Shown here one piece after another: positions 39,105 to 46,846 of a stretch of DNA of 64,000 nt. Numbering within the stretch: the stretch's first letter is position 1; each line of letters opens with the position of its first letter. The stretch covers positions 1-64,000 of the forward strand of contig NZ_RKLT01000004.1 of NCBI RefSeq assembly GCF_019599505.1. The letters are read 5' to 3'. Source of the stretch: Haloarcula nitratireducens. GTDB lineage: Archaea > Halobacteriota > Halobacteria > Halobacteriales > Haloarculaceae. The translations under genes were made by a program, and so were the position numbers. The notes under the pieces are model-generated. The model searched no databases. It saw only the letters and a list, made by a program, of their open reading frames with translations, and had not been told where the DNA came from.

Positions 39105-39428
39105 TCAGTCGACGGCGGCTGACTCGAACAGGGGAGAAGGGGTCGACGACTCGGCGGGGTCGCAGATCTGGATCCGGCCGTCGCCGCTGACGAAGACGTT
39201 CCATCCCGAGACGGAGAAGAAGAATATCTGTTCGGGGTCACGCACCGCGTCGGAACTCTCGAAGAGCGTATCGAGCGCCACCGCGTCTATCGTGTCGGCG
39301 AGCGGTTCGAGTTCTATCGGGCGGACCCCCTCGACGGTCGCTATCGCCTCGATGAGCGTCTCGGACAGCGTCGCTTCGTCACCTTCCCACACCGCTTCGT
39401 GTTCTGGCTCGCAGTCACAGTACGTCAT
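39105..39428 (-). CDS. HalOD1 output-domain protein
   Basis: This 107-aa protein is a single HalOD1 domain: SETLIEAIATVEGVRPIELE, PLADTIDAVALDTLFESSDA and the beta hairpin FSVSGWNVFVSGDGRIQICD. HalOD1 is a haloarchaeal output domain predicted to work downstream of signalling proteins. A short N-terminus with CDCEPEH is unusual and might bind metal. No kinase or receiver gene is adjacent. One of four HalOD1 genes in this window. Confidence 0.85.
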   Translation of the reverse strand: MTYCDCEPEHEAVWEGDEATLSETLIEAIATVEGVRPIELEPLADTIDAVALDTLFESSDAVRDPEQIFFFSVSGWNVFVSGDGRIQICDPAESSTPSPLFESAAVD

Positions 39429-44110: not shown

Positions 44111-44407
44111 TCAGACGGCGGGTCGCGCCGACACGGTGCCGTCGCCCGCGACTGTCACTGTGAGTCCCTCGTGCGTGAACGAAAACCGGCGGTCCGGCGA
44201 GTCGTTTCCGGACCCGAACAGCGTGTCGATCGCCTCCGCGTCGACCGATTCGTAGATCGGCGTCCCCTCGGCCGGCGTTCGGCCGGTCGCGGCGGCGATC
44301 GTCTCGACGACTGCCATGCTCGGTTCGGTCTCTGCCCAGTCGAACTGCTCGCTGACGGCCCCCACGGAAGCTCGCTCTCGGTCAGCGGTATCGAAAGATT
44401 TGCTCAT
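44111..44407 (-). CDS. HalOD1 output-domain protein
   Basis: The 98-aa protein has a single HalOD1 domain from about residue 30: SMAVVETIAAATGRTPAEGT, PIYESVDAEAIDTLFGSGND and the strand pair FSFTHEGLTVTVAGDGTVSA. It lies just downstream, same strand, of the opsin-transducer operon with a 101-bp gap. A minus-strand AT-rich promoter region (44410-44466) carries GAAATAGCGTA. A functional link to the opsin locus is possible but unproven. Confidence 0.85.
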   Translation of the reverse strand: MSKSFDTADRERASVGAVSEQFDWAETEPSMAVVETIAAATGRTPAEGTPIYESVDAEAIDTLFGSGNDSPDRRFSFTHEGLTVTVAGDGTVSARPAV

Positions 44408-44508: not shown

Positions 44509-45231
44509 TCAATCGCTTCCGCTCACGCCCGCCTCGTCGGCGAATGACGCGGGACCGCTGTCCGTCGAGCCTACCCCGCCGACCGCGATGGCAGTGACGT
44601 TGACGAAGAGGAACCCGGCGAAGCCGACCCTGATGAGCAGGCCGATATACACTCTGAGGACGGCGATGACGAACGAGTCGAACACCGCCGCGACCGAGAG
44701 CAGCGCGTAGACGATGAGCATCCCGACGAGGAACAACAGGAGGTTTCGGGACTTCCAGTGGAGGAGCCGCTGTCCGTCGGGAACGTCGGCCGCCCGACGC
44801 CAGATCGGCCCGAAGAGTAAGTACGCCATCAGGCCGTGTCCGAGGACGACGACGGCGAGACACGCGAGGCCGACGACGCCGCCGACGACGGACGCGACGT
44901 TGAACGCGACGACCTGGACCGCCGGGACGACGGCGGCGACGGCGAGCATCCGCCGGGACTCGTCGGCCAGCGCCACCGCGACAGTCCACAGCACGGAGTA
45001 CGCGACCAGGTCGTCGATCATACTCGGGACCGAGAGTCGAGTCCCGGCGACGGGGGCGACGCCCATCGACGTCAGCGCGCTCATCGCGGCCGAGAAGCCG
45101 ACGACGGCGACCACCGGATAGCAGTAGCGCCGCCGAGACGCCGGAACGCGGCTGAGCCAGCCCAGAAAGACGAGGAACGCCGCGGCCGAGACGGCCGCGG
45201 CGACGCCGTAGACGCCGGATTGGCTAATCAT
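44509..45231 (-). CDS. Seven-TM type-1 opsin lacking the retinal-binding lysine
   Basis: The 240-aa protein has seven hydrophobic helices and aligns by eye with sensory rhodopsin II. Helix C is [20 protein letters not shown] versus SRII 'ALGVGWVPVAERTVFAPRYIDW'. Helix G is [16 protein letters not shown] versus 'VYLDLVTKVGFGFIAL'. In this pairing the Schiff-base Lys is Arg201 (codon AGG at 44629-44631) and the helix-G Asp is Gly197 (GGC). The helix-C Arg is Ser70 and the TTP motif is AYS. The helix-F Trp/Tyr/Pro/Trp pocket is replaced by small aliphatics ([16 protein letters not shown]). The helix-C Asp (Asp73) and the transducer-contact Tyr (Tyr195) remain. It cannot bind retinal in the normal way. 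ATG 45231 lies inside the 3' end of the transducer gene (8-bp overlap). Lysine-less type-1 opsins have been described in haloarchaea; their function is open. Confidence 0.88.
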
Positions 45232-46846
45232 CGTCGCCACCCACCGTCTGTCGCCCGGCGGTCGGTGTCGGGTCGGCCGACGCGCCGTGACCCCCGTCGC
45301 GCGTGTCGAACGCCGACAGGCGGTCGATGAGTTCGTCGGTGCGGGCGGAGAGATCGTCGGCCCGGCGGCGCACGTCGCTCATCGTCTCGGCGGTCTCCTC
45401 GGCGGTGTCGGCCAGCGCGTGCGAGCGCTCGGCCACGTCGGCGGCGGCGTCACCGACGGTGTCGATGGTCGCGGCCACCTCCTCGGTGGCGGCCGCGCCG
45501 TCGTCGGTCGCCCGGGCGATCTCGCCCATCGCCTCGTCGACGTCGTCGACGGTGTCGGTGAGCTGTGCCAGCGTGTCGCCCGCGTCGGTGACCGTCTCGA
45601 CGCTCTCGTCGATGCGCGCTCGGGTGGCGTCCATCTCCCGGGTCACTTCGTCGACGTCCGACCGAGCGCCGGCGACGATGCCCTCGATCTCGTCGATGGC
45701 GTTCTGGGTCTCCTCGGCGAGGCTCTTGACCTCGTCGGCGACGACGGCGAAGCCCTCGCCGCCCTCGCTGGCGTGCGAGGCCTCGATGTTCGCGTTGAGC
45801 GCGAGGATGTTGGTCTGCTCGGCGATGTCGTCGATGATGCCGGTCGTCGACTCCACGTCCCGCATCCGGTCGTTCAGCGCCGCGACGAGGGCGTCCAGGT
45901 CGGCGATAGCCGTCTCGACGCCCTCGATGGACTCGATGGCGTCGGTGACGCGCTCGGCTCCGGTCGCGCCGACGTCCGAGGCCCGCCCGGCCCGCCGGGC
46001 GACTTCGTCCGTCGTCGAGGCGACCTCCTCGATCGTCGCCGAGAGGTCGTTCGTCTCCGCGACGGCGGTCTGGAGCCGGTTCGCCTGCCCCTCGATGTCG
46101 CGTGCCAGCTCGCGGATGTCCCCGGCCAGCGATTCGTTGAGCCGTTCGACGTCGGCCGCGTCGTCGGCGACGGCCCCGCTCGCGCTCTCGACGACGGTGG
46201 CGAACTCCCGGATCTCGTCGACCGTCGTCGAGAGGTCGCCGGCCATCTCCTCGTAGGCGACCGCGATTCGCTCCACCGCGTCCACGTCCACGTCGGTCTC
46301 CAGTCGCCGCGTGAAGTCGCCGTCGGCGGCCGCGGCCATCGCATCGCCGATGTCCGTGGCGTGTTCGATGAGCGTCTCGTTGAACGCCTCGGCCTCCCGT
46401 CGGGCCGCCTCCGCGTCTCGCTGGGACTCCTCCGCGTCTTCGCGGGCGTCCTCGGCCGCTCTCCGCGCCGTCTCGGACTCGTCGAGCGCTTCGCCGAGCG
46501 AGTCGCTCATGTCGTCGAACGCCGTAGCGAGGTGGCCGAACTCGTCGGCCCGGTCCACGTCGGGACTGGCGTCGAGGTCGCCGTCCTCGATGGCCTCCGC
46601 GGCACCGGTCAGCCGGCGGAGCGCGACGGCCGCGTTGCCGCCGAGGACGATGCCGAGCAGACCGAGGTTGAGCGCGACGACGAACAGCGTGCCGGCGATC
46701 GCCGACAGCCCCGCCTCCGTGTTCACCGCGTGGACGGCGAAGAGCGCACCGAACGCGAGCGTCGCGACCAGCGTCACCGCGAGCGCCGCGCCGATGCGCC
46801 TGCTGTAGTGGCCGGCTATCGGTTCGAATCCGCGTGTCGTCTCCAT
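45224..46846 (-). CDS. Sensory-rhodopsin-type methyl-accepting transducer (Htr-like)
   Basis: The 540-aa protein has two membrane helices ([20 protein letters not shown] and [20 protein letters not shown]) joined by only about six residues, so there is no extracellular ligand domain. Two HAMP-like segments follow (about residues 72-125 and 165-225), then a long coiled coil. The MCP signalling tip is [20 protein letters not shown], then [20 protein letters not shown]. This architecture is that of Htr transducers, which receive their signal laterally from a sensory rhodopsin. The opsin gene overlaps its 3' end, matching the htr-sop gene order. Output should be through CheW/CheA to the archaellum; no che genes are in the window. 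TATA-like AAATATAAG lies 25 bp before the ATG. Confidence 0.92.

Follow-up and report, generated by a model that had tools for sequence, protein, structure and literature searches.

The window analyzed here, a 64,000-nt stretch of DNA from Haloarcula nitratireducens, encodes a lysine-less haloarchaeal opsin (ORP) together with an adjacent HtrII-like transducer, and the ORP probably serves as the membrane input half of a two-protein taxis receptor for something other than light, with an inherited salt bridge for its switch. This proposal draws on the anatomy of the gene, the loss of its retinal site, purifying selection, linkage to the transducer, and the co-occurrence of a base and an acid across relatives. 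Lysine-less haloarchaeal opsins are already known as a class, as the initial annotation of this DNA had stated, and Becker et al. (2016; PMC4915679) distinguished group A, with Arg at the Schiff-base site, from group B, with leucine or another hydrophobic residue there. They proposed a non-light taxis role for group A (PMC4915679), and the ligand and output of these proteins were left open in that paper. Judged by sequence, the window ORP is a member of published group A; what we add is a wider spread of the class, a third Arg lineage, and a charge-pair rule with its exceptions. Among the open-access papers returned by literature searches on lysine-less or Arg opsins, no title or abstract opening beyond that of Becker et al. 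(2016) dealt with haloarchaeal Arg ORPs; some of these papers (e.g., PMC10308929 and PMC7714340) mention ORPs or lysine-less rhodopsins. In the searchable part of the main text of that article, the terms "salt bridge" and "counterion" had 0 occurrences and a third ORP group was not found (PMC4915679).

Results

The ORP gene (44509..45231, minus strand; ORF list, translation, phmmer, AlphaFold2) encodes 240 aa from an ATG, or 243 aa if translation begins at an alternative GTG at 45240. Its kinship to opsins is weak but significant: the 7 PDB chains that phmmer listed with E values up to 1 are without exception SRII (best 2ksy, E 8.5e-6), and the Pfam family PF01036 (Bac_rhodopsin) gave no match to the protein at E up to 1. 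AlphaFold2 predicted seven transmembrane helices (4-26, 31-55, 68-87, 93-116, 118-140, 152-180, and 186-210; mean pLDDT 89.1, pTM 0.83). Both the location of the reading frame and the SRII-like alignment of helix G were present as first annotated (minus strand; phmmer alignment to SRII), and codon read-out confirmed the replacement of the Schiff-base lysine, since codon 201 (44629..44631, minus strand), at the SRII K205 position in helix G, is AGG and encodes Arg. The initial annotation had also described the Asp counterion as changed to Gly197. That description holds for SRII D201, whose position is taken by codon 197 (GGC, Gly; 44641..44643, minus strand, codon read-out), but the main counterion, SRII D75, is kept as Asp73 (GAC). 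A second Asp that had escaped mention, Asp74 (GAC), stands next to it at the SRII W76 position, the two helix C codons together occupying 45010..45015 on the minus strand. Since the main counterion Asp is kept, the site is a remodelled charge pair and not a plain loss.

The remaining retinal-binding features were lost as had been reported. In the alignments, helix C has S70 in place of SRII Arg72 and A-Y-S at 77-79 in place of the TTP motif, and helix F has V169, L172, I173, and A176 where SRII has W171, Y174, P175, and W178; the aromatic pocket of SRII (W76, W171, Y174, and W178) is accordingly absent, its members being D74, V169, L172, and A176. The only lysine of the protein, K160 (codon at 44752..44754, minus strand), lies outside the pocket, near the cytoplasm in helix F (residues 152-180 of the model) and at that end of it, so no other lysine can hold retinal in the pocket. 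With Arg201 at the attachment site, the covalent retinal site is gone and retinal cannot be bound covalently, in agreement with the earlier claim. Like other group A ORPs, the window ORP combines the Lys to Arg change with W76 to Asp (D74), Y174 to Leu (L172), and W178 to Ala (A176), keeps Tyr199 (Y195) and Asp189 (D185), and has an adjacent HAMP/MCP transducer (PMC4915679); it differs from them in being a sequence not described before, whose nearest relative shares 82% identity with it. Compared with the SRII-HtrII system of Natronomonas pharaonis, it shares the seven-helix fold, the gene pair, Asp75, Tyr199, and a two-helix HAMP transducer, but lacks the lysine at the site, the aromatic pocket, Arg72, and Asp201.

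The adjacent gene, which the initial annotation did not mention, points to taxis. It encodes a 540-aa HtrII-like transducer (45224..46846, minus strand) with two N-terminal TM helices joined by a short turn, a HAMP domain (75-117; Pfam E 6.7e-13), and an MCP signalling domain (303-464; MCPsignal, E 2.8e-35), and its residues 26-132 match NpHtrII (2f95_B) at E 4.4e-14. The stop of the transducer gene and the start of the ORP gene overlap by 8 bases (45224..45231, minus strand; ORF list, codon read-out). The residue aligned with transducer Asn60 in NpHtrII we take to be Asn74, its numbering being our assumption; position 60 is Asn in 29 of 35 group A transducers and His in 6 of 35. On the ORP side, codon 195 (TAT, Tyr; 44647..44649, minus strand; codon read-out, alignment) corresponds to SRII Y199 and is invariant in 58/58 database homologues; in SRII, Tyr199 contacts the transducer (PMC4915679; PMC5292967).

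A transducer gene lay directly upstream on the same strand for 56 of 59 distinct group A genome proteins, none being seen next to L007 (at a contig end), L074, or L082. Group A transducers were 43-93% identical to that of the window and adjacent group B and C transducers 32-37%, while no transducer was found near the ORP at seven group B or B-like loci. The turn between TM1 and TM2 spanned only 17-21 residues in 35/35 full-length group A transducers read, which therefore lack an extracellular domain and have no sensor domain of their own. ORP and transducer distances rose together (r 0.91 over 35 sequences, without correction for shared species history). In group A the cytoplasmic helix halves were the more conserved (entropy 1.18 vs. 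1.58, P = 0.002), whereas 15 lysine-bearing sensory-type opsins had the reverse pattern (1.36 for cytoplasmic halves vs. 1.13). Although they lack a neighboring transducer, the group A ORPs L074 and L082 are intact; the gene preceding L074 is one that we presume, from its sequence and without a family search, to be a bat-type HTH regulator.

A protein homologue search with a cutoff of E 1e-3 returned 58 rows, one of them the window ORP itself, with Haloarcula amylovorans closest (82% identity). Arg was present at 201 in all 58, so Arg201 is not a matter of chance, and at position 74 there was Asp in 57 rows and Glu in the other. Scanning species genomes gave 16 loci, and when 392 genomes sampled from the order were searched, 101 matched at E 1e-15; in most of the 392, only the best seven candidates were scored, and some matches may be missed. 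Group A matches above 125 bits occurred in 50 of the 392, the next lower matches being at 102 bits and below. Together with three more reached through loci, these are the 53 carrier genomes studied, the window's own genome not being among them.

In a 72-protein tree, 47 lysine-less ORPs stood apart from 25 lysine-bearing opsins (100/100). A lineage for which we coin the label group C branched first (17 rows, 100/98), followed by L096 (93/76 for the rest), and groups A (100/100) and B (100/99) were sisters (98/91). The window ORP fell in the ORP clade within group A, in a tree where the sequences of Becker et al. are not placed by name. Group A comprised 58 rows in a 93-row tree (100/100), with Arg in 56, Tyr in L016, and Ser in L087; L086, outside that tree, is the 59th group A protein and also has Arg, which is thus kept in 57 of 59 distinct genome proteins. 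L086 is frame-shifted, with its transducer gene still present, and L040, L074, and L082 are intact genes. Since L016 and L087 lack Arg and have a transducer, Arg is not required in every group A protein. Within group A, L016 (L016:3503-4240) and P0113-P0120 form a lineage in which Tyr occupies the Schiff-base site and the counterion site is taken by Gln or Arg.

The group A ORP is maintained by selection. Under a codon model (GY, F3X4) applied to six genus-level sets, with genus labels assigned by means of named loci and of database matches that were identical or close, omega was 0.148 in Haloarcula, 0.137 in Halosimplex, 0.108 in Halorubrum, 0.157 in Halorussus, 0.086 in Halorientalis, and 0.203 in Halomicrobium. 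Simple counts for the closest printed pairs (0.19 to 0.69) were also below 1 and are expected to be inflated in such GC-rich genes. An intact frame under selection, and a conserved Arg alongside dN/dS well below 1, had been put forward as signs of function. Both were found: Arg was kept in 58/58 homologues and 57/59 genome proteins, omega was 0.086-0.203 in the six sets, and the gene was kept in the 8 of 53 carriers without detected Blh.

Blh, the retinal-making enzyme, was detected in 45 of the 53 carriers, most of which therefore have retinal available, and each of these 45 has a best PF01036 match above 175 bits. No Blh match was found in the other 8 of 53. Five of these (G002, which is H. 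amylovorans, G115, G147, G200, and G276) gave no PF01036 match; in G341 the PF01036 matches were confined to its two group A genes, G109 had only a His-type ORP (L127), and G008 had one lysine-bearing, halorhodopsin-like opsin (L058), a lysine-bearing opsin not being found in 7 of the 8. These genomes speak for independence from retinal. The lycopene-cyclase domain TIGR03462 had one match in 7 of these 8 genomes and none in G109, and three Blh genomes had three matches each. Of the 53 carriers, 52 have the CheA dimer domain, as do 300 of the 392 sampled genomes; within the sample this amounts to 49/50 carriers vs. 251/342 others, a comparison uncorrected for kinship and completeness. G341, the genome of L082, has two group A genes and no CheA match.

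Group C (L088, L094, L099, L107-L117, L119, L120, L124; P0059-P0101) is the third Arg lineage and comes from Haloterrigena, Natrinema, and Natronorubrum. Like the window ORP it has Arg at 201 (in 43 of its 44 rows from the database) and an adjacent transducer (at the three loci checked, L088, L094, and L099); unlike it, group C retains R72 (44/44), Y73, D75 or Glu (43/44), and D201 (44/44). The remaining row, P0102, has His at 201 and Gly at the counterion site. The group C protein P0059 matches PF01036 at 68.7 bits, and named members are annotated as bacteriorhodopsin or rhodopsin. Group C branches before A and B and could lie near the first step of retinal loss. The transducer of one group C locus (L112:1743-4001) has 753 aa with HAMP at 297-347, leaving a large segment ahead of HAMP, in which no Pfam sensor family was found at E 0.01.

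Across the relatives, the residue at 201 followed the acid of helix C. Site 201 over 205 rows, a count that omits only the frame-shifted L086, was R in 149, K in 25, L in 16, Y in 8, V in 3, F in 2, H in 1, and S in 1. Acid at 73/74 agreed with Arg at 201 in 179 of the 180 lysine-less rows; the exception, L040, has Arg with Asn-Asn and, since its gene is intact, is a real exception to the rule. When 209 positions were scanned in six residue classes, acid at 73/74 followed the Arg pattern most closely (179, against 174 for the runner-up), while acid at 197 (SRII D201) did not track Arg (22 rows with acid and no Arg, 61 with Arg and no acid). Five later rows (L127-L131) brought the set to 185 lysine-less proteins. 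With K or R as the base, 148 had both charges, 33 neither, 3 the acid only, and 1 the base only (L040), i.e., agreement in 181/185. The acid-only rows (L127, L129, and L130) all have His at the Schiff-base site, and when His was counted as a base, 151 had both, 32 neither, and 2 the base only (L040 and P0102), for agreement in 183/185. In L127, L129, and L130, the His and the helix C Asp make a titratable pair.

A likelihood test of dependent vs. independent change, for which the scored columns were excluded from tree building, returned P = 6.9e-5 and 4.9e-5 (2.5e-6 and 4.3e-6 on smaller row sets, and 6.8e-7 with L040, L074, L082, and L086 out); since parsimony counts few changes, three of the base (losses) and five of the acid, these values are guides only. 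The neutral class comprises group B, in which Gly-Tyr goes with Leu, Phe, or Val, along with L096, L087, and the Tyr lineage P0113-P0120 with Gln or Arg at 73. Group B ORPs resemble the window ORP as lysine-less relatives, some with an adjacent MCP gene, but differ in having a hydrophobic residue at 201 and Gly-Tyr at 73-74, so that both charges are gone. The counterion of halorhodopsin is chloride, and L058, by our reading a halorhodopsin, combines Lys with a Thr in place of D75. As no row like L058 was in the lysine-bearing set compared, the charge-pair rule is claimed for ORPs only.

Discussion

We propose that the ORP and its transducer probably form an SRII-HtrII-like complex that would inform CheA of a stimulus other than light, most likely a small molecule, either extracellular or membrane-borne. 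In SRII, an interhelical salt bridge joins the protonated Schiff base of helix G to Asp75 of helix C, and its loss is the signal. Disruption of such a bridge, between the Schiff base and Asp73, reportedly leads to constitutive signalling (Spudich et al. 1997). In NpSRII, Lys205, Asp75, and Trp76 sit in the vicinity of the Schiff base, and the transfer of the Schiff base proton to its counterion, Asp75, comes with a loss of hydrogen bonds and greater freedom of movement for helices C and G (PMC5292967). Arg201 would be an encoded cation that replaces the protonated Schiff base, paired with Asp73/Asp74 in a salt bridge equivalent to that of SRII without retinal, and the stimulus may act by breaking or making this bridge.

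The sensor-less transducers also bear on an alternative that we consider unlikely, in which the ORP senses no ligand and is either a structural or tuning subunit that fixes the state of the transducer or a responder to ionic strength, pH, or membrane state via its buried charge pair. A more conserved output half and a more variable input half would fit such a role, and a buried Arg-Asp pair could be sensitive to ions or pH. However, since all 35 full-length group A transducers are without a sensor domain and the ORP is under purifying selection, an input-free pair would need a reason to be kept. The initial annotation had suggested voltage or membrane sensing, but no evidence in this analysis points that way. 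It is more improbable still that the ORP is a photoreceptor, with retinal bound non-covalently or with another chromophore such as carotenoid. Blh and a strong PF01036 match in 45/53 carriers would be consistent with this, and Becker et al. left an alternative chromophore open (PMC4915679); however, the pocket aromatics are gone, the closest relative genome, that of H. amylovorans, has neither Blh nor a PF01036 match, and two expressed ORPs, one from Halorubrum distributum, gave no 480-580 nm band (PMC4915679).

A role in gene control or stress response instead of motility has a slightly smaller probability again. L074 and L082 have no transducer nearby, L074 standing beside the putative bat-like regulator, and non-motility roles were raised for some group B ORPs (PMC4915679), but the window ORP and those of 55 further group A loci, out of 59 in all, have an MCP transducer as neighbor, and 52/53 carriers have CheA. 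Although one group A copy, L086, is truly frame-shifted, the chance that the window ORP is a decaying opsin or a sequencing error is very slight: the partner is adjacent in 56/59, and Arg in 58/58 homologues with omega of 0.086-0.203 contradicts a pseudogene or an error in the sequence, and we reject both.

We regard the receptor reading, with its inherited salt bridge, as the best explanation of the window pair, and the third Arg lineage, the charge-pair rule, and the wider spread of the class suggest an SRII-like switch run by a non-light trigger. It is possible, though we hold this broader view more tentatively than the reading of the window pair, that lysine-less opsins in general keep the SRII switch, with the helix G cation and the helix C anion kept or lost together and light replaced by another trigger acting on the same bridge. 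The lineages behind this view are group A (Arg), basal group C (Arg), the neutral group B and Tyr lineage, and a His lineage with the acid. If correct, a light receptor can turn into a receptor for something else with its switch unchanged, and type 1 opsins would be a general receptor fold with a swappable input. The rule that R201 goes with D73/D74 predicts which substitutions would lock or free the receptor. The ORP pair offers a small, clean test system, as its transducer has no sensor domain of its own and the close relative H. amylovorans has no detected PF01036 opsin or Blh.

An adjacent class V aminotransferase hinted at serine or pyruvate sensing, a candidate we rejected: at group A loci longer than 5 kb, this gene and LigA were nearby in Haloarcula, Halosimplex, and Halomicrobium (L001-L006 and L008) and neither was at the others, so their presence looks like local synteny. 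Scans of the window for tRNAs and composition yielded nothing informative. Two small stand-alone HalOD1 (halobacterial output domain) proteins are encoded near the ORP pair, at 44111-44407 and 39105-39428, both on the minus strand.
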